A stretch of DNA of 64,000 bases. It comes from Rhodocyclales bacterium. GTDB taxonomy: Bacteria; Pseudomonadota; Gammaproteobacteria; Burkholderiales; Rhodocyclaceae. Below, piece by piece: positions 9,286 to 22,773 of this stretch (position 1 is its first letter; each line of letters begins with the position of its first letter). The notes under the pieces were generated by a model that made no database searches, was not told the DNA's origin, and was given only the letters and a program-made list of their open reading frames with translations. Where the stretch lies: contig JAPLQY010000015.1 of assembly GCA_026399475.1 (NCBI GenBank), forward strand, positions 62,001 through 126,000, read 5' to 3'. The position numbers and the translations under genes were made by a program.

Positions 9286-10362
9286 TCAGGCCTCGCCGTC
9301 CACGGTCTCCAGTTGCCGCGAGCGCCAGTCGAGTATGGCGGTGCGCACGGCCATTCTGCCGGCGAGCTCGGGGAACTCGGTACGGATCACCTCGGCGGCG
9401 AAGGCGGAGAGGAAGCGGCTCTTGAGTTCGGCCCGTGCCCGATCGACGCCGATTTCGTCGTAGGGCACTGAGGCCAGCAGCAGGAAGCCGTCGTCGGGCA
9501 CACGTCCGGCCCGCATGTTGGCCTCGATGATGCCGGCGGCGGTGCGGATCGGCACGTCGAGGTTCGGACTGTAGGGGCCGATGATCAGCGCGAGGTTGGG
9601 TGTATGCAGGAAGTCGAAGCCGCGGCCGAGGCAGATCATCCACTCGCGGTGCTCGATGTCGAGCGCGCGCTCGGCGCGGCGCATCTGTGCGCGCACCTGC
9701 TCGATATGCTCAAGGTTTCCGTGCAGCAGAGGCATCAGGTCGGCACGCATCTGCGCCGGCATGTCCGGCAGCAGGGCGGCGAGATTGAGTTCCAGCGTGG
9801 CGCGGTCGGTCGAGCTCAAGGTGGACAGGTCGAGTTTTCGGCCGTCAGTGCCGTGAATGATCAGCGCGTCCTCGTCGGTCTCGAAGCCGCAGACCAGCGG
9901 ATAGACGGTGCCATGGGCCGCGCCGAAGATGTGCTCGACCTGGCGGCGGATTTCGTAGGTGTGGGCGATGGCGGCCTCGGTGTCGTAGTTGAAGCCGGCG
10001 CAGCCACGCTGCGGGTCGCCCTTCGAGTAGTGGTAGGTGATGAAGAAGATCAGCCTGCGGCCGCCGCTGACCATGCGTTGCACGTGGTGCGCCAGCACCT
10101 CGCCCAGGTGCGGCCAGCCGAGGTCGAACATGCCACCGAGATTGCGGAATGGCATCAGGATGCCGACGGGCGTGTTGGTGGCGACGGGAATGTTGATGCG
10201 GCCGTCCATGCATTTCAGCACCGCGATGGCGGTCGGATGCTCGGACAGGTAGCGTTCGCGCGCCAGCCACGCCTCCGGACTGCGGTAGTTGGCGCCGTGG
10301 CGGTCGGCAAGGTCGAACAGCCAGTCGATGCGCTGCTGTATCGGCTTACTGTGGATGTCCAT
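9286..10362 (-). CDS. Stand-alone carbonic-anhydrase-like protein (CsoSCA/beta-CA type zinc site)
   Basis: A 358-aa protein with the beta-carbonic-anhydrase signature: CMDGR (C51, D53, R55) followed by H111 and C121 in TYHYSKGDPQRGC, giving a Cys-His-Cys zinc site with the Asp-Arg dyad. The wide His-to-Cys spacing is closer to carboxysomal CsoSCA than to ordinary beta-CAs, where it is two residues. No carboxysome shell or RuBisCO gene is nearby. I chose the ATG at 10362 because a GGAGG-type site (complement of TGCCTCC) lies just upstream. Its start overlaps the end of the upstream dehydrogenase gene by 17 nt, so the two are co-expressed. Activity is inferred from motifs only. Confidence 0.72.
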   Translation of the reverse strand: MDIHSKPIQQRIDWLFDLADRHGANYRSPEAWLARERYLSEHPTAIAVLKCMDGRINIPVATNTPVGILMPFRNLGGMFDLGWPHLGEVLAHHVQRMVSGGRRLIFFITYHYSKGDPQRGCAGFNYDTEAAIAHTYEIRRQVEHIFGAAHGTVYPLVCGFETDEDALIIHGTDGRKLDLSTLSSTDRATLELNLAALLPDMPAQMRADLMPLLHGNLEHIEQVRAQMRRAERALDIEHREWMICLGRGFDFLHTPNLALIIGPYSPNLDVPIRTAAGIIEANMRAGRVPDDGFLLLASVPYDEIGVDRARAELKSRFLSAFAAEVIRTEFPELAGRMAVRTAILDWRSRQLETVDGEA

Positions 10363-11563
10363 GCTGCCTCCTGGAATCGCACCCGGCGTCGAGCAGCGTG
10401 TCACGATCCAGTCGGCGTACATCGATTACGCCGCACAGCGCCATGGCCACCGACATTTCCTTGTGCATGACCGAAAGCATGTGGGCGACGCCGGCCTCGC
10501 CGCGGGCGGCGACGGCATAGCCCCAGGCCCGCCCGAGCATGCAGGCTTTGGCGCCGAGCGAGAGCGCCTTGACCACATCCAGTCCGCTCCTCACGCCGCC
10601 GTCCATGAGCACCTCGAGGCGGTCGCCGACGGCGTCGACAATCCGCGGTAGCGCCTCGACGCTGGCGGCCACGCCGTCCAACTGGCGGCCGCCGTGATTC
10701 GACACCACCAGCCCGTCGGCACCAACCGCTGCCGCCTGGCGCGCATCGTCCACGTCGAGAATCCCCTTGAGCAGGATCTTGCCCGGCCAGTTTTCCCGCA
10801 CCCAGGCCAGGTCGTCCCAGGTGACGCGCGGATCGAACTGGCTATCCACCCAGGCCTTGAATTCCGGCAGGCTGCGCGCATCGGGTACGGCCGTCGTCAG
10901 GTTGCCGAACATCAGGGGTTGGCCCTTGATCGCCACGTCCAGCAGCCAGTGCGGATGCGAGATCAGGTCCCAGGCCTTGGCCAGCCGGCCCGCCAGCGGC
11001 AGTGCGCTGGCCATGCCATTGCGGGTGTCGCGATAGCGCGCCCCCATTACGGCCAGATCGACGGTCAACACCAGCACCGGGCAGCCGGCGGCCTGCGCCC
11101 GCGCCATTAGTTCCTTGGTATAGCTGCGATCGCGCATGACATAGAGCTGATACCAGAAGGGTGCCTTCGTCGCAGCGCGAACTTCCTCGATCGAACAGAT
11201 GGAAACAGTCGATTCGCAAAAGGCCACACCGGCTTGCTCAGCGGCGCGTGCCGCCTGCACCTCGGCCCGCCGCGCCATCGCGCCGGCCAGCCCGACCGGT
11301 GCGAGTATCAGCGGCAGGGCAAGATCCTGGCCCAGCACGCGGGTGTTCAAACTCAGCCGGGAGACATCGCGCATGACGCGCTGGCGCAGGCGCAGGCGAT
11401 TGAACGCCTGCTGATTCTCGCCTGCGGTCACTTCTTCATAAGCCGCGCCGTCGAGGTAATCGAACAAGTGTCGCGGCAGGCGCTTGCGCGCCAGTTCCCG
11501 GTAGTCGGCTGCCGTGGCGGGAGCAAGACCCAGTCCGCGAGTGCCATTGTCCATCACGCTCAT
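10346..11563 (-). CDS. lldD: FMN-dependent 2-hydroxyacid dehydrogenase (LldD / glycolate oxidase family)
   Basis: A 405-aa TIM-barrel flavoprotein that oxidises an L-2-hydroxyacid such as lactate or glycolate. The family N-terminus (RLPRHLFDYLDGAAYEE) and the FMN/catalytic region VVSNHGGRQLDG, with the catalytic histidine, are clear, as are the phosphate-binding stretches MDGGVRSGLDVVKAL and LGRAWGY. Length is normal for the family. Lactate, glycolate and mandelate enzymes cannot be told apart by eye. It is first of a two-gene minus-strand unit with the carbonic-anhydrase-like gene and faces the HTH-ferredoxin operon across a 175-nt divergent promoter region. Confidence 0.88.
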   Translation of the reverse strand: MSVMDNGTRGLGLAPATAADYRELARKRLPRHLFDYLDGAAYEEVTAGENQQAFNRLRLRQRVMRDVSRLSLNTRVLGQDLALPLILAPVGLAGAMARRAEVQAARAAEQAGVAFCESTVSICSIEEVRAATKAPFWYQLYVMRDRSYTKELMARAQAAGCPVLVLTVDLAVMGARYRDTRNGMASALPLAGRLAKAWDLISHPHWLLDVAIKGQPLMFGNLTTAVPDARSLPEFKAWVDSQFDPRVTWDDLAWVRENWPGKILLKGILDVDDARQAAAVGADGLVVSNHGGRQLDGVAASVEALPRIVDAVGDRLEVLMDGGVRSGLDVVKALSLGAKACMLGRAWGYAVAARGEAGVAHMLSVMHKEMSVAMALCGVIDVRRLDRDTLLDAGCDSRRQHGHPQ

Positions 11564-11738
11564 CCCCCAATTGATGCCTGCATCTTACCGCCCCGCGACG
11601 CAATGCGCGAGGCGGCGCAGGCCGGCGGCCCTGGCTTCGCAGAGGCGGAATCCGGCCTCGAGGCGAGGGACGATTCCGGCCGAAATATGTTCTAGGCGAC
11701 CATAAGAAATTGAAATCGCCGGAGGGCTTTGCTTCGCT
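11564..11738. promoter_or_regulatory. Divergent intergenic region
   Basis: A 175-nt gap between the starts of the dehydrogenase gene (minus) and the HTH-ferredoxin gene (plus), so promoters for both must lie here. I see no convincing -35/-10 pair. A GGAGGG lies 12 nt before the ATG at 11739. Confidence 0.5.
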
Positions 11739-13214
11739 ATGCTTGCAATCATGTCTCAGTGGCTGACCCTTTCCCGCGCCGCACATCTGCTCGGCATTTC
11801 GCGCGTCGCTTTGCAGAAGCGCATTCGCGAGGGTGAACTGCCGTCTTTTGATGGCATGGTGGCGGCGGACGATTTGCAGCGGACCTGGCCGGAGCTGGAT
11901 CTGAATGAGTCGGGCAGTTTTGAAAAGACCCGCGCGATTCGCGAGGATGCCTTCGCCAAACGCCTGCGCGAACGTGTCCTGCCGACTCAGGAGACGCTCG
12001 CCCAGCGCCTGTTTGTGCAGGGGCAGGAACTCGCGGAATTGCAGCGGACCCTGACGCGTTATCACACCTTGTTCGAGGCCTTGGAGGTGCGTCTTGCTGC
12101 CGAGCCGGCTCCGGCAGGCGGCGAACTGTTGCGGCTGCTCGACGAGGGCCTGGCGCAGGCGCTGGCGGCCCCCGCACCGGGAAACGACATGGCCGCACTC
12201 GATGCTATGCTGCGCGTCATGTCGGCGCACGTTACGGTCAAGCCATCGGGTCGGGAATTCTTTGTCGAGGGTTCGGAGACCCTGCTGAAGGCCGCGCTGC
12301 GCGCCGGGCTGGCGCCCAACTATGGCTGCGGCAACGGCAATTGCGGCTTGTGCAAGGCGCGCGTGGTATCCGGGGAGGCGCGCACGGTGGCACCTTCCGA
12401 CTACCGCTTCTCGGAAGCCGAGAAGGCCCAGAACCATGTGCTGATGTGTTCCTGCACCGCGCTGAGTTCCGACCTCGTGCTGGAGGTGCTGGAAGCCGGC
12501 GCGCCCGAGGACATTCCCGAGCAGCGCATCGTCGCCAAGGTTCGCCGCATCGATGCGCTGACCGCCGACGTGATACGCGTACACCTGCAGACGCCGCGCA
12601 GCAACCGCCTGCGCTTTCTCGCCGGGCAGCGGGTCACTCTGGGCATTCGCGCCGGCGTCCGTGATGGCAGCGATGTTCATGGCGAATTCCCGGTGGCGAG
12701 CTGTCCCTGTGACGACCGCAACCTGATTTTCCACATCAGCCGCGGCGATCACCGTGCCGCCAGCACCGACTTTTCCCGCCGTGTCTTCGAAGATCGCATC
12801 AAGGTTGCCGACGACGTCTCGGTGTGGGGTCCCTGGGGCCGCTTTGTGCTGGAGAAGGCTTCGGCACGTCCGCTGGTTTTCATTGCGCTCGACGACGGCT
12901 TCGCCCCGATCAACAGCCTGATCGAACACGCCATTGCGGTGGATGCGGCGGAGTCGATCACGCTCTACTGGGCCAGCGAGCAGGCCGGCGGCCAGTACCT
13001 GCCGAACCAGTGCCGGGCCTGGGCCGCCGCGCTCGACGAGTTCAGCTACCGGCCGCTGGCCGTCGATGAACTGGCGGCGGCGCTTGCAGCGGATAGCGCA
13101 TTGCCGCTGAGCGATGTCTATCTTGCCGGGGCGGCCGAGGTGGTTGAGCCGCTGGCCGCCGCGCTGCTGGCCGCCGGTGTGCCGCCGGCGCAACTGCATG
13201 TCGAGGGCCTGTGA
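11739..13214 (+). CDS. HTH / [2Fe-2S] ferredoxin / FNR-like reductase chimera
   Basis: A 491-aa protein with three parts. Residues about 5-50 resemble an excisionase/MerR-like helix-turn-helix (LSRAAHLLGISRVALQKRIREG). A helical linker spans about 60-160. Residues 165-255 form a plant-type ferredoxin with ligands C197, C202, C205 and C237 (GCGNGNCGLC). Residues 262-491 resemble a ferredoxin-NADP reductase, but its usual motifs are degenerate: EFPVAS replaces the flavin RxYS motif, ALDDGFAPI the GGTGxAP loop, and LAGA the CGP motif. A redox-sensing DNA-binding protein is one reading. It leads a five-gene operon with 4-nt gaps. An alternative start is the ATG at 11751. Confidence 0.75.
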   Translation: MLAIMSQWLTLSRAAHLLGISRVALQKRIREGELPSFDGMVAADDLQRTWPELDLNESGSFEKTRAIREDAFAKRLRERVLPTQETLAQRLFVQGQELAELQRTLTRYHTLFEALEVRLAAEPAPAGGELLRLLDEGLAQALAAPAPGNDMAALDAMLRVMSAHVTVKPSGREFFVEGSETLLKAALRAGLAPNYGCGNGNCGLCKARVVSGEARTVAPSDYRFSEAEKAQNHVLMCSCTALSSDLVLEVLEAGAPEDIPEQRIVAKVRRIDALTADVIRVHLQTPRSNRLRFLAGQRVTLGIRAGVRDGSDVHGEFPVASCPCDDRNLIFHISRGDHRAASTDFSRRVFEDRIKVADDVSVWGPWGRFVLEKASARPLVFIALDDGFAPINSLIEHAIAVDAAESITLYWASEQAGGQYLPNQCRAWAAALDEFSYRPLAVDELAAALAADSALPLSDVYLAGAAEVVEPLAAALLAAGVPPAQLHVEGL

Positions 13215-13218
13215 AGCC

Positions 13219-13587
13219 ATGATCCAGCCAAGTCGTGTCATTCCCATCCAGCCGCAGGCCGTCGATACCGAACTGGACGCCTGTTCCTCGGCCGAGCCCT
13301 TCGCCCTGATGGTGCTGGGCGACAGCATGGAGCCCGAGTTCCTCGAAGGTGAAGTGATCCTGATCGAGCCGGAAGGCTTGGCGACCGACGGTTCCTTCGT
13401 CCTTGCCCGGCTCGACGGCGAGTGGATTTTCCGCCAACTGGCGAAGCACGGTACAGGCTGGCGGCTGCAGGCACTAAACCCCGCCTATCCCGCAGCGGAT
13501 ATTCCCGACCTGGGCGAGGTCAAAGGGGTCATCATCCAGAAATCGAAACCCGGCCGTCGCAAGGCCACCAAACGTTACGTGGACTAA
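13219..13587 (+). CDS. S24/LexA-peptidase-like protein lacking the catalytic lysine
   Basis: A 122-aa protein resembling the C-terminal half of LexA/UmuD/phage-repressor S24 peptidases, without a DNA-binding domain. The serine box is intact (GDSMEP, S36), but the strand that normally carries the catalytic lysine (VKRL-type) reads WIFRQL, with arginine 72 at that position. It may be a binding module, not an autoprotease. The ATG at 13219 is 4 nt after the preceding stop; the track start at 13114 overlaps the chimera gene and is rejected. The pairing with an HTH-redox protein suggests a split regulator, which is an inference. Confidence 0.7.
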   Translation: MIQPSRVIPIQPQAVDTELDACSSAEPFALMVLGDSMEPEFLEGEVILIEPEGLATDGSFVLARLDGEWIFRQLAKHGTGWRLQALNPAYPAADIPDLGEVKGVIIQKSKPGRRKATKRYVD

Positions 13588-13591
13588 ACCC

Positions 13592-13825
13592 ATGCCCTAT
13601 TACATCTATCGCGTAACTCCAATCGGGCCGATCCGCCAGTTGGCGAAGATCACCGAGCTCGAGGCATTCAAGGACGCTTCGAACGAAGCCAAGCGCCTGC
13701 GCCGCGAATCCGAACTCGCTGCCGGCGAGTTGATCAAGACCATCTTCGCTTCGAACGAGTTGCAGGCAGAAGAGTTGCTCAACGAGCCGAGAGGCGAAGA
13801 GCCGATGACAGGGGAAGACTACTAG
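13592..13825 (+). CDS. Conserved-looking small protein, unknown function
   Basis: A 77-aa protein with a short beta-like N-terminus (MPYYIYRV) followed by a charged helical stretch (EAFKDASNEAKRLRRESE) and an acidic end. It has no signal peptide, membrane segment or cysteine. It starts 4 nt after the S24-like gene and ends 4 nt before the next gene, so it belongs to the operon. The function is not recognisable from the sequence. Confidence 0.65.
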   Translation: MPYYIYRVTPIGPIRQLAKITELEAFKDASNEAKRLRRESELAAGELIKTIFASNELQAEELLNEPRGEEPMTGEDY

Positions 13826-13829
13826 CGTC

Positions 13830-14282
13830 GTGGTCGACGAAACCGCTTTCCGTCATGCCAGGGGCGAGATCAATCGCCTGCCCTGCGTTTTCGAGCGAGC
13901 GCTGCTGGCGCGCCACGCGGCCTGCGAACTGGCGGTGCGGCACCAGATCGCCGAGCGCGAGACGGTGGCCTGCGCTCAGCCGGTGGCGCGGGCGGTCTGC
14001 GCACAGATGTCGGGCCTGCTGCGCGAGAAGTCGGCATTTGCGCTGGGACTTTCCGATACTCAGCGCATTCTGCCGCACGCCATGGTGATGAAGATCCAGT
14101 GCGGCGGCCTCGATGGTCTCAAGGCCTTGCTGGATGCCGATGCGGTGGCGCCGGATGTGCGGCGCCTGATACGCCTGGCGCAGGAGCGCTACGGCGACCT
14201 CGGCGAGTTGCCCTTTTCCGAGATCGTGCAAGGCGTTGCCGCGTGGAAGGCCCGCCGCCGCCATTCCGGAGAGCCGCGATGA
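13830..14282 (+). CDS. Hypothetical helical protein
   Basis: A 150-aa mostly alpha-helical soluble protein with a GTG start 4 nt after the preceding stop. A stretch rich in Ala, Arg and Glu (residues 20-60) contains two cysteines (CELAVRHQ and VACAQPVARAVCAQ). I do not recognise a family. It overlaps the following ORF by 4 nt (ATGA), which supports both as real and co-translated. Confidence 0.6.
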   Translation: MVDETAFRHARGEINRLPCVFERALLARHAACELAVRHQIAERETVACAQPVARAVCAQMSGLLREKSAFALGLSDTQRILPHAMVMKIQCGGLDGLKALLDADAVAPDVRRLIRLAQERYGDLGELPFSEIVQGVAAWKARRRHSGEPR

Positions 14283-15334
14283 TAGTCGGCATGGCCGCGC
14301 TGGTGGATGCCGTGCAGACCAACTGCGACATCGCCGACGCTCGTCATGCGCGCGACGTCAGCTTGTGCACCTACCTGCTAGGCATGCGCGAGTTCTATCG
14401 CTGGGAACACGAGCTTCCCTGGGGCATCTCACCACCGCGCGACGAGGTGGGACGATGGATTGCCGAGCGCGAGGCGCGCTGGGAGCGGATAGCGGACGAG
14501 GATTTCGTCGCAGTACCGATCGCCGGTCACACCTTCGATCCCTTCGCCGCCCAGAAGGTCAATGCCGCGCTGGCAGGCAGCGGACTGGTGTATGGCGCAG
14601 GCGTGGGGCGCTTCCACAAGCCGCACTTCTTCCTCGGCCAGCTGGCGCGCGAAGAGCAGCGCGGCGATGCGCGACTGCTGGTCTGTGGCTGCGAATATGC
14701 GCGCGATGTTTCGGCCATTCCGGCCGCGTCCCAGGGCGGTACCGTGATTGTCCGCCGCGAGGCGCTGCGGCAGTGGCTTTGGGAGAAAGCCGAGGGCTGG
14801 AACGTCAAGCAACAGGATGGCGCGCTCAAGTCGGCCTTGCTCGCGTATGGCTTTGACGTCGATCCGCAGGCCGCCATCGAGCGCATGGCCGATGGTGAGA
14901 TCGAAACCCTGGTCCTCCACGAGGAAGGCGAAATTGCCGCCGGCCGGGTGCTGGGCAAGGGCTGGTCGGCAAAACTTGATGGCTTCTGCGGCAAGCGCGC
15001 CGAACTGCTGGCGCGAGCGGTGCGCGACAACTTGGCGGATTGCCTGGTGACACTGCCAGGTTTATTGCAGCGAGGCAGCAACGACTCGCTGCATTTCTGG
15101 TTCTCGACCTTCGATGGCATGCGCCGCGAACTGTTTCCGCGACTGGTCGAGTCCTATGCCGCGAGAGTTGTGCGAACCGGTATTCCGCCGGACGGCGGTG
15201 GCGGCATGGACATGCTTGCGAGCGCCGCCGAGGCCGGCCGCGTCCATTTCACCGCACTCGGCTTGCGTTTGCTCGACATGGACGAGCCCGGCATCGAAGC
15301 GCTCTCACACACTCCGGCCGCGATAGCCCTGTAG
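14279..15334 (+). CDS. Conserved hypothetical protein (possibly Sfum_1244-like)
   Basis: A 351-aa soluble protein starting at the ATGA overlap at 14279. The longer ORF from 14099 is frame run-on through the preceding gene. The N-terminus (AALVDAVQTNCDIADARHARD) and YLLGMREFYRWEHELPW look like a conserved enzyme-like family that I recall as Sfum_1244; that match is from memory and weak. It has no membrane segment. Several cysteines lie in LLVCGCEYARD. It closes the five-gene operon begun by the HTH-ferredoxin chimera, so a redox-linked role is plausible but unproven. Confidence 0.6.
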   Translation: MIVGMAALVDAVQTNCDIADARHARDVSLCTYLLGMREFYRWEHELPWGISPPRDEVGRWIAEREARWERIADEDFVAVPIAGHTFDPFAAQKVNAALAGSGLVYGAGVGRFHKPHFFLGQLAREEQRGDARLLVCGCEYARDVSAIPAASQGGTVIVRREALRQWLWEKAEGWNVKQQDGALKSALLAYGFDVDPQAAIERMADGEIETLVLHEEGEIAAGRVLGKGWSAKLDGFCGKRAELLARAVRDNLADCLVTLPGLLQRGSNDSLHFWFSTFDGMRRELFPRLVESYAARVVRTGIPPDGGGGMDMLASAAEAGRVHFTALGLRLLDMDEPGIEALSHTPAAIAL

Positions 15335-15359: not shown

Positions 15360-15926
15360 CTACTCCTTGATGGCTTCGATGGCGATGGTCAGCGTTACCT
15401 CGTCGCTGACGTAGGGCACGTTCTTGCCCATGTTGAACTCCGAACGCTTGACCTTGGTCACCGCGTTGGCGCCAATCGCGTCTTTCTTCAGCATCGGATG
15501 CGGCATGGAATGGAAGGACGTCACGGTCAGCGTCACCGGCCTGGTCACGCCCTTGATGGTCAGATCGCCCTCGACGGCCACCGGCTTGTCGCCATCGAAC
15601 TTGACCTTGCTCGACTTGAAGGTGATGGTCGGGTACTTCGCGGTATCGAAAAAGTCCTCGCCCTGAATGTGCTGGTTGAAAAGCGCGTAGCCGGTGTTGA
15701 CCGACTTGGCGTCGATGATTACATCCACCGCCCCGGTATGGGCGGCGCGATCTATGACGACCTTGCCGCTGGTCTTGTCGAAGCGCTGTTGCTGGTTGGA
15801 ATAGCCGAAGTGGCTGTATTCGAAGCGCGGGTAGGTGTGGGTCGGTTCAACGTTGAAGGTTTCGGGCGCCGCGAAGCTGGCGGCGGAGAAGGCTGAAAGG
15901 GCAAGGACGAGGGCGAGATTCTTCAT
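15360..15926 (-). CDS. YceI family periplasmic protein (1)
   Basis: A 188-aa secreted lipocalin-like protein. A signal peptide (MKNLALVLALSAFSAASFA) is followed by the YceI beta-barrel, with the family segments EPTHTYPRFEYSHFGYS and NQHIQGEDFFDTAKYPTITFKS. YceI proteins bind polyisoprenoid chains in the periplasm. This is the distal gene of a cytochrome b561-yceI-yceI operon, 31 nt after the second paralog. Confidence 0.9.
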   Translation of the reverse strand: MKNLALVLALSAFSAASFAAPETFNVEPTHTYPRFEYSHFGYSNQQQRFDKTSGKVVIDRAAHTGAVDVIIDAKSVNTGYALFNQHIQGEDFFDTAKYPTITFKSSKVKFDGDKPVAVEGDLTIKGVTRPVTLTVTSFHSMPHPMLKKDAIGANAVTKVKRSEFNMGKNVPYVSDEVTLTIAIEAIKE

Positions 15927-17356: not shown

Positions 17357-18133
17357 ATGCCACGCTTTGCCGCAAACCTTTCCTATCTGTTTACCGAGCG
17401 TCCCTTTCTGGAGCGCTTTGCGGCGGCGCGCGCGGCAGGTTTCGCAGCCGTCGAGTTTCACTTCCCATACGAGTTTGACCGCGCCGCACTGGCCGAGGTG
17501 GTACTGACCTCGGGCCTGGAAGTCGTCCTGTTCAATCTGCCGCCGGGCGATTGGGCAGCGGGAGAGCGCGGCATTGCCTGCCACCCGCGGCGTATTGCGG
17601 AGTTCCAGGATGGTGTCGGGCAGGCCATTGACTACGCCCGCCTGCTGGGTTGCGGCCGACTCAATTGCCTGGCCGGAATAGCACCTGGCGGCATTACCCA
17701 CGACAAGGCGCGTGAAACCCTGATCGAAAACCTGCGCTTTGCCGCAGCCGTGACCGCGCGCGCGGGTATCGAACTGGTGCTGGAGCCGCTCAACACGCGT
17801 GACACGCCGGGCTTCCTCGTTGCCACCACGCGAACCGCGCTGGCGCTGATCAAGGCGGTTGGCAGTGAGAATCTGCGCCTGCAATACGACATTTACCACG
17901 CCCAGGTGATGGAGGGCGATCTGGCCCGTACGTTGCAGGAGCATCTGCCGCAGATCTCCCATATCCAGCTTGCGGACAATCCGGGGCGGCACGAGCCGGG
18001 TAGCGGCGAGATCAATTTCCCCTTTCTGTTTCAGCACCTCGACAGAATAGGCTACGCCGGCTGGGTCGGCTGCGAATACAAGCCAGGCGGGCGTACTGAA
18101 GACAGTTTCGGCTGGCTGGAGTCGTGGCGGTGA
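17357..18133 (+). CDS. hyi: Hydroxypyruvate isomerase
   Basis: A 258-aa cytoplasmic TIM-barrel enzyme interconverting hydroxypyruvate and tartronate semialdehyde. Family motifs are FAANLSYLFTERPFLERF at the start, the metal-ligand glutamates in LVLEPLNTRDTPGFL and GCEYKPGG, and the histidine-bearing stretches QYDIYHAQVMEGDL and IQLADNPGRHEPGSGEINF. Length is normal. It overlaps the glycerate kinase ORF by 10 nt, so the two sequential steps of glyoxylate assimilation are coupled. Confidence 0.9.
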   Translation: MPRFAANLSYLFTERPFLERFAAARAAGFAAVEFHFPYEFDRAALAEVVLTSGLEVVLFNLPPGDWAAGERGIACHPRRIAEFQDGVGQAIDYARLLGCGRLNCLAGIAPGGITHDKARETLIENLRFAAAVTARAGIELVLEPLNTRDTPGFLVATTRTALALIKAVGSENLRLQYDIYHAQVMEGDLARTLQEHLPQISHIQLADNPGRHEPGSGEINFPFLFQHLDRIGYAGWVGCEYKPGGRTEDSFGWLESWR

Positions 18134-19440
18134 GCTATGGGCGGCAGCGGGCTTTGCTGCGAAGCCTGTTTGATGCGGCGGTTGCGGCTGCCGATCCGGC
18201 GCGCTGCCTGCCCGCATACTTGCCGGAGCCGCCCGCTTCACACGATTCATCAATGGGCCGCACGGTCGTTGTCGGCGCCGGCAAGGCCGCCGCTGCCATG
18301 GCCCGCGCTGTCGAGGATCACTGGCGCGGCGATCCGGAGCGACTCTCCGGCCTGGTCGTCACGCGCTACGGACACGGCGCTCCGACGCGGCGCATCGAAG
18401 TCGTCGAAGCCGCGCATCCGACACCCGATGCCGCGGGGCAAGCGGCGGCGGTGCGCATTCTCGACGCGGTAAAAGGGCTGACGCCGGACGACCTGGTGCT
18501 GGTGCTGCTCTCGGGGGGTGGTTCGGCCCTGCTTGCGGCCCCGATGGCAGGCGTCACGCTGGAACAGAAGCGCGCCGCGACCAAAGCCCTGCTGAGCTGC
18601 GGTGCCAGCATCGGCGAGATCAACTGCGTCAGGAAGCATCTCTCGGCCGTCAAGGGCGGCCGTCTGGCGCTCGCCGCCGCTCCCGCGCGAGTGCTGACGC
18701 TGGCGATTTCCGATGTACCCGGCGACGACCTGTCGACCATTGCCTCCGGCCCGACGGTGTCCGATCCGACAACTTGCGCTGACGCACTCGAAATCGTGAC
18801 TCGTTACGGTATTGAACTTTCCGCCTTCGCGCATCAGTCACTGCTGACGGGCGCCTGCGAAACGCCTAAGGCCGGCGACCCGCGTTTTTTGCGCTGCGAG
18901 TCGCACATCATCGCCACGGCGCAATCTGCGCTAGCGGCAGCGGCCGAGGTGGCGCGAGCGCAGGGCATCGCAGCGCTGGTCCTGGGTGACGCCATCGAAG
19001 GCGAGGCGCGCGAGGTGGCGCGCGTGCTGGGTGGCGTCGCGCTGTCCTGCGCCGCGCATGGAGTGCCGCTGGCGGCGCCCTGCGTGCTGCTCTCCGGCGG
19101 CGAAACTACCGTGACAGTAAGAGGCGGCGGGCGCGGCGGGCGCAATGCCGAATTCCTGCTCGGACTGGCGCTGGCACTCGGGGGGCATCGAAGCATCCAT
19201 GCCATCGCCTGTGATACCGATGGCATCGACGGTTCGGAAGACAATGCCGGTGCGCTGTTGCTGCCGGATACGACGGCGCGTGCCGCTGCCGCAGGAATTG
19301 ATTTGCGTGCGCGCCTGGCCGAGAATGACGCGTACAGCGTGTTCGCCGCGCTCGGCGACCTGGTCGTTACCGGGCCGACACGCACCAACGTCAACGACTT
19401 CAGGGCGATCCTGATCGAACCGACCCTCGAGGTGCCGTGA
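18124..19440 (+). CDS. ttuD: Glycerate 2-kinase, MOFRL family
   Basis: A 438-aa glycerate kinase of the GckA/TtuD type, converting D-glycerate to 2-phosphoglycerate and completing glycolate salvage. Conserved stretches include VVVGAGKAAAAMA, VLLSGGGSALLAAP and the lysine region NCVRKHLSAVKGGRLA; the C-terminal MOFRL domain shows LLSGGETTVTVRGGGRGGRNAEF and CDTDGIDG. It begins with GTG inside hyi; MGRTVVVGAG is an internal methionine, not a likely start. The stop is 1 nt before the diguanylate cyclase ATG. Confidence 0.9.
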   Translation: MAVSYGRQRALLRSLFDAAVAAADPARCLPAYLPEPPASHDSSMGRTVVVGAGKAAAAMARAVEDHWRGDPERLSGLVVTRYGHGAPTRRIEVVEAAHPTPDAAGQAAAVRILDAVKGLTPDDLVLVLLSGGGSALLAAPMAGVTLEQKRAATKALLSCGASIGEINCVRKHLSAVKGGRLALAAAPARVLTLAISDVPGDDLSTIASGPTVSDPTTCADALEIVTRYGIELSAFAHQSLLTGACETPKAGDPRFLRCESHIIATAQSALAAAAEVARAQGIAALVLGDAIEGEAREVARVLGGVALSCAAHGVPLAAPCVLLSGGETTVTVRGGGRGGRNAEFLLGLALALGGHRSIHAIACDTDGIDGSEDNAGALLLPDTTARAAAAGIDLRARLAENDAYSVFAALGDLVVTGPTRTNVNDFRAILIEPTLEVP

Positions 19441-19441
19441 A

Positions 19442-21121
19442 ATGAGCACTCGCGAGCAGAACGAACGGCTGTTGCAGGAACATCAGGCGATATTCGAGAA
19501 TGCCGCGATAGGCATCGTCTACAGTTGCGGCCACCGGATCGAGCGTTGCAACCGGCGCATCGCCGAACTCTTTGGCTACGAGGTGGTGGACCTGGTCGGC
19601 CGCGAAGCGGCAATTTTTTACGCGAACAATGACGACTACGTCCGGTTGAGTCAGGAGGCGCGGGTGGACTTGTTTGCAGGCCGCGCTTTTGTCGGCGATG
19701 TGGAAATGCGGCGCAAGGATGGAGCGGCGGTCCATGTCCATGTTTCAGGCCGGCTCATCGATGCAGCGGCTGCCGAACCGGCCGTGGTGTGGACGATTGA
19801 GGACGTCACCGATCAGCGGCGCATCGAACTCGCTCTTGATCTGGCCAAGCGCGAGACTGAGGCCATTTTTGACTCGGCGGTGATGGGCATCACGCTCGTC
19901 AGGCATCGCGTTATCGTGCGCTGCAATCGGCGCTTTGAAGAGCTGTTTGCCTGCGGACCCGGTGAGATGACCGGACTATCGACAAGGGCCTGGTACCTGA
20001 CCGACGAGGAGTACGCGAGTATCGGCGCGACAGCTTACGCGGCACTCAGTCAGAACAACTACCATTGTCGCCAGCAGCGCTTCCTGCGCAAGGACGGCAG
20101 CATCTTCTGGGGCGAGATAGCCGGACGCGCACTCGATCCGCAGCAGCCGCAGGAAGGCTCGGTGTGGCTGCTCGAGGACATCAGCGAACGACGGCAAATG
20201 CTGCAGCGCCTCGAGCTCGCCCAGCGCGTCCTGGACAGCAGTTCCGAGGCTGTTGTGGTGACCGACGCCGACAACCGCATCGTGTCGGTCAATCGGGCTT
20301 TTGAACGCATTACGGGGTTTTCTGCCGATGAAGTGCTGGGCCGCAATCCGGGGTACTTCAAGTCGGGGCGGCACGACGCAAGCTTCTTCCAGTCGATGTG
20401 GCAGAGCTTGCGCGACACGGGGCGCTGGCGGGGAGAAATCTGGGATCGGCGCAAGGATGGCAGCGTCTATCCGAAGCTTGCCAGCATCGATGTGGTACAG
20501 GATTCCAGCAGCGGCAAGGTGGCTAACTACGTTGCGGTTTTTTCCGACTTCAGCGAACGCAAGGCGACTGAGGAGCAGGTGAGCTACCTCGCGCACCATG
20601 ACCCCCTCACCGGCCTGTCCAACCGCCTGGCCCTTGGCCTGCATCTCGGACACCAGCTCGCCGTCGCCCGCCGTAACGGGACGCGGGTAGCGCTCCTGTT
20701 CATCGATCTCGACGGCTTCAAGCCGGTCAATGACCGCTATGGACATGCCGACGGCGACCGCTTGCTGGTCACCCTGGCCGCAAGGTTGCGGCAGCAGGCG
20801 CGGGAATCCGATCTGGTGGTGCGGCTCGGTGGCGATGAGTTCGTCATCGTGATGGAGGGAGGCTTCACCGACCAGAATCTGGCGACGATCGCGGCAGGCC
20901 TGGTAGCGACGGTTGCCGAGCCTTGCCCTCTTGCCGCCGGGGAAGTGCATGTGTCATGCAGCATAGGTATTGCCTGTGCGCCGCGGGATGGCGATACGCC
21001 GGACGCGCTGCTGAGCTGTGCCGATGCCGCCATGTACCGGGCAAAAGCGGCGGGTCGCGGTTGCCACGTGTTTTTCGAAGGTGGCACCGGCGATATGCAG
21101 CAAGGCGTGCCGTCAAATTAG
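19442..21121 (+). CDS. Diguanylate cyclase with three PAS domains
   Basis: A 559-aa soluble protein making c-di-GMP. Three PAS domains span roughly residues 10-130, 130-255 and 255-380, the third with the family stretch VTDADNRIVSVNRAFERITGF. The GGDEF domain (about 385-550) has the intact active site RLGGDEFVIVM and a RESD I-site five residues before it, so product inhibition is expected. There is no signal peptide or membrane segment, so cytoplasmic ligands or redox state are sensed. The TGAAATG junction couples it to the glycerate kinase. Confidence 0.92.
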   Translation: MSTREQNERLLQEHQAIFENAAIGIVYSCGHRIERCNRRIAELFGYEVVDLVGREAAIFYANNDDYVRLSQEARVDLFAGRAFVGDVEMRRKDGAAVHVHVSGRLIDAAAAEPAVVWTIEDVTDQRRIELALDLAKRETEAIFDSAVMGITLVRHRVIVRCNRRFEELFACGPGEMTGLSTRAWYLTDEEYASIGATAYAALSQNNYHCRQQRFLRKDGSIFWGEIAGRALDPQQPQEGSVWLLEDISERRQMLQRLELAQRVLDSSSEAVVVTDADNRIVSVNRAFERITGFSADEVLGRNPGYFKSGRHDASFFQSMWQSLRDTGRWRGEIWDRRKDGSVYPKLASIDVVQDSSSGKVANYVAVFSDFSERKATEEQVSYLAHHDPLTGLSNRLALGLHLGHQLAVARRNGTRVALLFIDLDGFKPVNDRYGHADGDRLLVTLAARLRQQARESDLVVRLGGDEFVIVMEGGFTDQNLATIAAGLVATVAEPCPLAAGEVHVSCSIGIACAPRDGDTPDALLSCADAAMYRAKAAGRGCHVFFEGGTGDMQQGVPSN

Positions 21122-21270
21122 CCACCCATCATGCGAGCCCGAGGTCAAACTGACATGCGATGCCTGTCCCGATCCTCAGCCACAAGAGATGCGGCGGGGG
21201 TTTCCGGGTGTGACCCGCTCAATGGACGACTGGCCGCGCTTTCCCGAGGCGGCTCTGTGAAGGAGGAATA
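21122..21270 (+). promoter_or_regulatory. Upstream region of glcD
   Basis: A 149-nt spacer between the cyclase and glcD. A strong ribosome binding site (GAAGGAGGA) lies at about 21259-21267, just before the ATG at 21271. I see no convincing promoter or operator. Confidence 0.4.
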
Positions 21271-22773
21271 ATGGTTCAGCGCGAACATTCTGCCGATAAG
21301 GCGCAGGATTTTGCCGGCACGGATCGCGAGGCGCTGCTGGCCGAACTCGCGCGCCTGCTGCCACCCGACTCGCTGCTGTTTGCGGCCGAGGATTTGAAGC
21401 CCTACGAGTGCGACGGCCTTTCTGCCTATCACCAGTTGCCGATCGCGGTCGCCTTGCCGGAATCCGAGGCGCAGGTGGTGGCAGTGGTCAAGGCCTGTCG
21501 CGCGGCCGGTGCGCCGGTTGTCGCCCGAGGCGCAGGCACCGGGCTTTCGGCCGGTGCGTTGCCACATCCGCAGGGCGTGGTGCTGTCCCTGGCAAAACTG
21601 AAGAAAATTCTCCATGTTGACCCGGTGGCGCGCGTTGCCGTGGTGCAAACCGGAGTGCGCAACCTGGCCATTTCGGAGGCCGCCGCACTGCTGGGACTCT
21701 ATTACGCACCCGATCCGAGTTCGCAGATCGCCTGTACCATCGGTGGCAACGTGGCCGAAAATTCCGGTGGCGTGCATTGCCTGAAATACGGACTGACGCT
21801 GCACAACGTGCTGCGCGTGCGCGCGGTGATGATCACCGGCGATATTGTCGAATTTGGCAATCATGCACTCGATGCTCCCGGCTACGGCTTGCTGGCGCTG
21901 GCGATCGGTTCCGAGGGCATGCTGGCGGTCGTCACCGAAGTGACGGTCAAGCTGGTGCCGAAGCCGGAGCATGCCCAGGTGATCATGGCCAGTTTCGATG
22001 ATGTGATGAAGGCAGGCGAGGCCGTGGCGGAAGTCATTGCTGCCGGCATCATACCGGCCGGGCTGGAGATGATGGACAAGCCGGCTACTGCCGCCGTCGA
22101 GCCTTACGTGAAAGCCGGCTACGACCTGAATGCCGAGGCCATTCTGCTTTGCGAATCCGACGGTACGGCCGAGGAGGTCGCGGAAGAAATTGCGCGCATG
22201 AAAGCCGTGCTTGAAACCAGCGGCGCGACCGAGATCCGCGTCTCGCAATCGGAGCCTGAGCGCTTGCGTTTCTGGGCCGGGCGCAAGGCCGCTTTCCCGG
22301 CCGCAGGACGAATTTCGCCAGACTACTATTGCATGGATGGCACCATTCCGAGAAAGCGCCTGGGCGAAATGTTGACGGCGATCTATGCCATGGAGAAGAA
22401 ATACCGCTTGCGCTGCATCAACGTGTTTCATGCCGGCGACGGCAATCTGCATCCTCTGATCCTCTACGACGCCAACGTGGCCGGAGAGCTGGAACGGACC
22501 GAAGCCTTTGGTGCCGAGATCCTCAAGCTTTCGGTGGCGCTGGGGGGCACCATTACCGGCGAACATGGCGTGGGTTACGAGAAGATCAACTCGATGTGCG
22601 ACCAGTTCGGTTCCGACGAGTTGCGTGCCTTTCATGCGGTCAAGCGCGCGTTCGACCCGGAGGGTTTGCTGAATCCCGAGAAGGGCATCCCGACGCTGCA
22701 TCGCTGCGCAGAGTTCGGACGCATGCATGTGCATGGCGGCAACATCAAGTTTCCTGAACTGGAGCGCCTGTGA
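21271..22773 (+). CDS. glcD: Glycolate oxidase FAD subunit GlcD
   Basis: A 500-aa FAD-linked oxidase of the VAO/PCMH type that oxidises glycolate to glyoxylate. The FAD-binding region is clear: PVVARGAGTGLSAGALPHP and CTIGGNVAENSGGVHCLKYG. The C-terminal catalytic region has NVFHAGDGNLHPLILYD and GGTITGEHGVGYEK. Length matches GlcD. With GlcE and GlcF it forms a membrane-associated glycolate dehydrogenase passing electrons to the quinone pool. Confidence 0.93.
   Translation: MVQREHSADKAQDFAGTDREALLAELARLLPPDSLLFAAEDLKPYECDGLSAYHQLPIAVALPESEAQVVAVVKACRAAGAPVVARGAGTGLSAGALPHPQGVVLSLAKLKKILHVDPVARVAVVQTGVRNLAISEAAALLGLYYAPDPSSQIACTIGGNVAENSGGVHCLKYGLTLHNVLRVRAVMITGDIVEFGNHALDAPGYGLLALAIGSEGMLAVVTEVTVKLVPKPEHAQVIMASFDDVMKAGEAVAEVIAAGIIPAGLEMMDKPATAAVEPYVKAGYDLNAEAILLCESDGTAEEVAEEIARMKAVLETSGATEIRVSQSEPERLRFWAGRKAAFPAAGRISPDYYCMDGTIPRKRLGEMLTAIYAMEKKYRLRCINVFHAGDGNLHPLILYDANVAGELERTEAFGAEILKLSVALGGTITGEHGVGYEKINSMCDQFGSDELRAFHAVKRAFDPEGLLNPEKGIPTLHRCAEFGRMHVHGGNIKFPELERL

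Follow-up and report, generated by a model that had tools for sequence, protein, structure and literature searches.

What is the function of a five-gene operon whose first gene joins a putative DNA-binding motif to a ferredoxin and a degenerate reductase? We addressed this question for an operon in a window of 64,000 nucleotides (the whole stretch of DNA that was analysed, to which all positions refer) on contig JAPLQY010000015.1 of a Rhodocyclales bacterium of the Sulfuritalea type (GCA_026399475.1). With high confidence, we assign the operon to the reverse (oxidative) Dsr (rDsr) system of sulfur oxidation, a context that the first-pass annotation of this DNA had missed, as it had the family of gene 5. 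The explanation that we favour overall, with moderate confidence, is that the five genes form an accessory module of rDsr-dependent sulfur oxidation and that this module is probably redox-regulatory.

The five open reading frames are co-directional on the forward strand, the first of them being open from 11739 (11739-13214). As had been described, they lie 4, 4 and 4 nucleotides apart until genes 4 and 5, which overlap by 4 nucleotides (ATGA). We regard them as one unit because the upstream gene for a flavin mononucleotide (FMN) enzyme is divergent from them and the downstream YceI gene is convergent (Table 1). The gene order of what had been put forward as an undescribed operon proved to be conserved. 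In a collection of named genomes, the order 1-2-3-4-5 was found in 39 of 80 loci and the order gene 1-MoxR-VWA-DsrS-like-2-3-4-5 in another 6, and therefore the adjacency is not due to chance. Most of the remaining loci were partial or cut by contig ends. The 80 loci include Sulfuritalea, other Rhodocyclaceae, Curvibacter, Hydrogenophaga, Rubrivivax and Hylemonella; the MoxR-AAA, VWA/DUF2201 and DsrS-like genes were found inside the operon, between genes 1 and 2, in several Rhodocyclaceae genera. Here, "DsrS-like" is a call from synteny, made by position only, from the place after dsrN-dsrR in the published order (PMC3368242).

Two genome samples revealed with which pathway the operon travels. 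In the family sample (151 genomes), the gene 1 chimera was detected in 30 genomes, 29 of which carried dsrA, compared to 9 of the 121 others. Likewise, Sfum_1244, the family of gene 5, was present in 30 of the 151 genomes, all 30 with dsrA, which occurred in 8 of the 121 others. The class sample comprised 274 genomes across many families, 94 of them with dsrA. In this sample, dsrA accompanied the chimera in 23/26 genomes, the S24 gene (gene 2) in 75/77, gene 4 in 67/70, Sfum_1244 in 58/63 and a gene 1 homologue lacking the helix-turn-helix (HTH) in 34/37. The Fisher p values for co-occurrence in the class range from 3e-9 to 2e-46, uncorrected for relatedness. The class-wide counts cover genes 1, 2, 4 and 5, and gene 3 is linked to dsr through the operon. 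All 15 genomes reached via chimera loci had dsrA, two of them being already in the family sample. The window genome itself holds dsrAB, F, H, C, M and K of the oxidative type on contig C77, and a congener has dsrE as well. The contamination estimate of the window assembly is 9%; dsrA was also found in three congeners.

The association extends to physical linkage. The operon is unlinked from dsrAB in the window genome. In all ten Burkholderiales loci examined, dsrK-M-C-H-F-E-B-A are divergent from a run that bears the operon, in the order c48, Cas6-like, DsrC-like, c6, TauD-like, chimera, S24 and gene 3, followed by genes 4 and 5 where these were detected. All five operon genes were present in 5 of the 10 loci, and c48 went undetected in one. 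Among these loci is that of an isolate, Curvibacter sp. PAE-UM, with the operon beside dsrAB. In three Gammaproteobacteria, HTH-less gene 1 homologues come after dsrN-dsrR-DsrS-like, with or without MoxR-VWA, and in other Gammaproteobacteria Sfum_1244 adjoins dsrAB, DsrC-like and Alvin_2107-type genes.

Gene 1 is the most unusual member of the operon. The first-pass annotation had described it as an HTH fused to a plant-type ferredoxin and a degraded reductase, and each of these parts was recovered, the HTH by a weak match. The plant-type ferredoxin domain (Fer2, E=7e-14) has the ligand pattern C-x4-C-x2-C...C, and its [2Fe-2S] cysteines C197, C202, C205 and C237 (numbered from the 11739 start) are invariant in an alignment of 21 orthologues. 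The HTH, residues 8-37, matched HTH_17 of Pfam at E=3e-4 and 21.5 bits, below the gathering cut-off of 27. In the AlphaFold2 model this region folds as helix-turn-helix, strand and helix at a predicted local distance difference test (pLDDT) score of about 75-80, and together with the following helical stretch it is conserved in all chimeras. The reductase part matched FNR-type NCBIfam models at E=1e-17 to 7e-27, yet far under the model cut-offs. It is the best-predicted domain of the model (pLDDT roughly 80-93 across most of it, with a mean of 72 for the whole protein), and the top Foldseek matches were dioxygenase reductases of the BenC/CarAd type (E=2e-23 to 7c3a).

A normal reductase fold with intact motifs had been named as the result that would speak against this description; the modelled fold indeed appears to be that of a normal FNR, but the motifs are degraded. 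Our reference was a canonical paralogue from the same genome, which carries AFSIANAP, GGTGFAP, CGAP and a C-terminal aromatic residue. At these sites gene 1 reads EFPVASCPCDD, LDDGFAP and AGAA, and it ends in LHVEGL, without the aromatic. In the flavin motif RxYS/RxFS, R is replaced by G and S by P in the window protein, and the motif is degraded in nearly all orthologues; the NAD(P)H motifs GGxxG and CG(P/A)P and the C-terminal aromatic are likewise missing. The CPC signature that stands in place of the flavin motif (C322 and C324) is invariant among chimeras. It is also found in the dsr-linked HTH-less homologues of about 325-405 residues, but not in the canonical paralogue. In a maximum-likelihood tree the chimeras group together, with 2 label changes versus about 20 in shuffles, although long-branch rows call for care. 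This agrees with one fusion of the HTH that was followed by one loss. At the level of sequence, these comparisons demonstrate that gene 1 descends from a ferredoxin-reductase. The ligands of the [2Fe-2S] cluster have been retained, whereas the canonical residues for binding flavin and NAD(P)H are gone, and a putative HTH has been gained, apparently through one fusion event.

How would such a protein serve sulfur oxidation? The leading mechanism, which we hold tentatively and at slightly less than even confidence, is that gene 1 encodes a redox sensor. Its product would be a dimeric DNA-binding protein derived from a reductase, whose [2Fe-2S] cluster, possibly together with the cysteines of CPC, reads an electron or thiol state made by sulfur oxidation. 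The sensor would then adjust the expression of dsr or accessory genes. The proteins of the other four genes, namely the S24 pseudo-protease, the gene 3 product, the Cys-rich product of gene 4 and Sfum_1244, may act with it in the regulation or assembly of rDsr components. The conserved HTH and helical stretch, the loss of catalytic motifs, the retention of the cluster ligands and the signal-transduction genes nearby (several chimera loci have response regulators, kinases or GGDEF-EAL genes in their vicinity) argue for a sensor. More speculatively, gene 1 may be a redox-sensing transcription factor of a new class that lost its flavin and nucleotide chemistry, gained CPC and a single HTH fusion, controls transcription through its [2Fe-2S] state as set by sulfur oxidation and has the non-cleaving S24 pseudo-protease and the DUF6866 protein as partners; we consider this possible, with somewhat lower confidence than the sensor role itself.

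Several observations weigh against a redox-regulatory module. DNA binding by the gene 1 product is putative and depends on a weak HTH match, with 9 of 21 members reaching E<0.01 for HTH_17. HTH-less homologues occur in dsr context; therefore the Fer2-FNR part may have a job that needs no DNA binding. NAD_binding_1 was weakly matched by 14 of 21 orthologues and FAD_binding_6 by 12 of 21, so that residual flavin binding is possible. A search for one operator in both the chimera promoter and the intergenic region of dsrA found none. The signal-transduction neighbours are common genes whose presence may be coincidence. Finally, one family member (G025, locus L068) lacks dsrA and yet carries the chimera together with genes 3 and 4, which makes it a natural test of the module's job without Dsr. 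Five class genomes (G217, G328, G336, G243 and G420), several of which are incomplete, hold some operon genes without dsrA.

The main rival is a module for assembly or maturation that helps to build or activate rDsr components, namely the siroheme and Fe-S enzymes DsrAB, DsrL and DsrMKJOP. MoxR-VWA pairs frequently have a role in the maturation of metallo-enzymes. The MoxR ATPase, the VWA protein and the DsrS-like protein would be a remodelling core; the Fer2-pseudo-FNR would donate electrons or serve as a scaffold, and the HTH would be used for docking or have been added secondarily. The insertion of this trio between genes 1 and 2 in several Rhodocyclaceae genera and the position of the HTH-less homologues after dsrN-dsrR-(MoxR-VWA)-DsrS-like both fit such a role. 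However, the operons of the window genus and of Burkholderiales keep the five genes without the trio, and the conserved HTH region of all chimeras is left unexplained. We consider an assembly role rather unlikely; it does not exclude a sensor role. DUF2201_N gave a weak match only elsewhere in the window genome, and the open-access literature searched yielded nothing joining dsrAB, MoxR and DsrS.

A working flavoprotein with unconventional motifs, which would take electrons from NAD(P)H, or from a different donor, pass them to the [2Fe-2S] ferredoxin and feed a sulfur-oxidation step or dsr-linked oxygenases, seems improbable. The predicted fold resembles benzoate and carbazole dioxygenase reductases, the ferredoxin ligands are intact and TauD/2-oxoglutarate (2OG) oxygenases lie near dsr loci. 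On the other hand, the Arg and Ser of RxFS, the two glycines (GG) at the NAD site, the Cys of CG(A/P)P and the C-terminal aromatic have all been lost relative to the canonical paralogue, and 2OG dioxygenases are not known to need such a reductase.

Considering that the sensor remains our preferred mechanism, what does the S24 protein contribute? Gene 2 matched Pfam S24 (PF00717, E=9e-19), has a GDSM serine motif and a conserved basic C-terminal tail, and in profile comparisons, at the level of sequence, matched the structures of CI, LexA and UmuD. Consistent with the earlier description of a serine without catalytic lysine, Ser36 is kept and the catalytic Lys site (Lys192 of lambda CI) is Arg72. 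The site is Arg in 37/37 homologues, so that self-cleavage is unlikely; the serine is kept in 34 of the 37 and lost in 3. Many dsr genomes also have an S24 gene where the dsr cluster ends, with no chimera next to it. A split LexA/CI-like switch, in which S24 and the HTH chimera make up one repressor controlled by self-cleavage or partner cleavage, was therefore rejected as very improbable in view of the Lys-to-Arg substitution and this distribution, although the domain is closest to CI, LexA and UmuD and its gene directly follows the HTH gene in many loci. Of the redox-responsive system with separated DNA-binding and S24 modules proposed by the first-pass annotation, the redox sensor survives as the leading mechanism, but S24 without the chimera, the absent lysine and the HTH-less homologues count against the split. 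S24 alone could hint at an origin from a mobile element or phage; the gene order and the dsr linkage do not. In one gammaproteobacterium (L143:4880-8009), the row that ends the dsr cluster consists of a histidine kinase, a LuxR-type response regulator, a rhodanese and an S24 homologue, and similar sets were seen in several other genomes.

The last three genes had been reported as having no recognised function; genes 3 and 4 match no family, but gene 5 belongs to a known, uncharacterised one. Gene 3 matched no Pfam or NCBIfam family above threshold, and a profile search of the PDB gave one marginal 22-residue match, which we ignored. It is conserved in an alignment of 18 orthologues, tracks the operon and stands beside gene 4 in distant Gammaproteobacteria. 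Gene 4 had no Pfam or NCBIfam match above threshold and no PDB profile match. Its invariant cysteines (C19, C32, C48, C57 and C91) make an Fe-S or zinc site plausible. Gene 5 scored 405 bits against NF045620 (cut-off 150) and matched PF21739/PF21740. Its AlphaFold2 model reached pLDDT 94, and a fold search against the PDB gave nothing better than E=0.6. Given its invariant residues N15-C16, C30 and H214-E215..E218 (H-E-x2-E), metal binding is possible. In the open-access literature searched, neither Sfum_1244 or DUF6866 nor the rDsr co-occurrence of Sfum_1244 was met, an absence that is no proof of novelty; Alvin_2107 had one passing mention in a figure legend.

Table 1 Coordinates of the operon, its sequence features and its neighbours in the window
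Feature	Position	Strand	Description
FMN-enzyme gene	10346-11563		lactate-dehydrogenase-type; divergent from operon, upstream neighbour
Conserved upstream block (CCATAAGAAATTGAAATCGC ... GCTATGCT)	11700..11743	+	promoter-like; covers ATG at 11739
Gene 1 (chimera)	11751..13214	+	MerR/excisionase-like HTH, helical coiled-coil-like linker, [2Fe-2S] ferredoxin, degenerate FNR-type reductase
Region coding C197, C202, C205, C237	12327..12449	+	[2Fe-2S] cysteines, 21/21 invariant
Region coding VASCPCDDRN	12693..12722	+	in place of flavin motif RxYS/RxFS; signature invariant in chimeras
Gene 2	13219..13587	+	stand-alone S24 (LexA/CI/UmuD-type) domain
Gene 3	13592..13825	+	77 residues, begins MPYY
Gene 4	13830..14282	+	150 residues, GTG start, five invariant Cys
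Gene 5	14279..15334	+	351 residues, Sfum_1244 / DUF6866 family
YceI gene	15360-15926		convergent with operon, downstream neighbour

The start of gene 1 is probably 11751. The ATG at 11739 was rejected because it falls within a conserved element ending GCTATGCT and most orthologues begin at the Met of 11751. This block and TATGCT are kept in an alignment of 23 Sulfuritalea-type loci, and the remaining upstream sequence varies; the block appears to be a promoter-like element, and a scan for the sigma-70 consensus gave no match. Gene 4 may alternatively start at 13833. Palindromic repeat units (GGGGACATATCCC ... GGGGATACCGTCCCC) occur upstream of the operon in several Sulfuritalea-type genomes (L050, L151, L153, L163, L168, L170, L174 and L176) and are absent from the window.

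Further genes were noted around the operon and around dsr loci. On the reverse strand, 9286-10422 encodes a protein like the carboxysome shell carbonic anhydrase (TIGR02701 at E=1.6e-10, well under the cut-off; PF20686 above its cut-off). Genes for hydroxypyruvate isomerase, a glycerate kinase-like protein and glycolate oxidase GlcD lie at 17357-22773, and similar genes come after the operon in several Rhodocyclaceae relatives. Close to dsrAB, sulfur oxidisers from several families encode a Cas6-fold protein (PF09559) (L095:6598-7224, L097:3373-3999 and L081:12842-13552, the last with TIGR02807 above cut-off). The dsr neighbourhood of a congener contains a TusA-type protein with two matched stretches (L097:2852-3334), and in Gammaproteobacteria genes resembling TauD and PKHD/2OG-Fe(II) oxygenases were seen repeatedly near Sfum_1244 and dsrAB (L081, L077 and L070).

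In sediments, lakes and symbioses, the reverse Dsr pathway of sulfur oxidation is a major source of energy; its regulation and the roles of DsrR and DsrS are still poorly understood. Four families are now tied to this pathway: the chimera/pseudo-reductase, the S24 pseudo-protease, the Cys-rich 150-residue protein and DUF6866/Sfum_1244, with gene 3 joined through the operon. An isolate with the operon beside dsrAB makes their functions directly testable. We conclude that the operon is a so far uncharacterised module, accessory to a known pathway, and that its unusual chimeric protein is what makes it most interesting.

To place the module among known systems, we compared it with the dsr set of Allochromatium vinosum, fifteen genes in the order dsrABEFHCMKLJOPNRS (PMC3368242). 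In 2011 it was stated that the roles of DsrR and DsrS had not been resolved (PMC3368242); PMC11406059 cites later work that tied DsrR to the regulation of sulfur oxidation. The operon resembles this set in its occurrence in the same genomes, its adjacency to dsrAB in Burkholderiales, the DsrS-like gene in several Rhodocyclaceae operons and the gene 1 homologue after dsrN-R-S-like genes in Gammaproteobacteria. It differs in two ways: the fifteen published genes include none of its five, and it is unlinked from dsrAB in the window genome. Gene 1 shares the Fer2-FNR order, the predicted fold and the [2Fe-2S] ligands with BenC, CarAd and PRK05713, the ferredoxin-NAD(P)H reductases of ring-hydroxylating dioxygenases, but differs from them by the N-terminal HTH and coiled-coil-like region, the lost flavin and NAD(P)H motifs and the CPC signature. 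SoxR is a MerR-type redox regulator that consists of an HTH, a coiled coil and a [2Fe-2S] cluster. By analogy, gene 1 resembles it in the succession of putative HTH, long helical stretch and [2Fe-2S] domain. Unlike in SoxR, the predicted cluster belongs to a plant-type ferredoxin domain, whose fold is unrelated, there is a pseudo-reductase domain as well, and the HTH_17/excisionase match is weak. Gene 2 has the S24 domain and GDSM serine motif of LexA, CI and UmuD by sequence, but differs from them in having no DNA-binding domain, in the Lys-to-Arg replacement and in its conserved basic tail. Gene 5 is a member of the Sfum_1244/DUF6866 family (NF045620, PF21739, PF21740).

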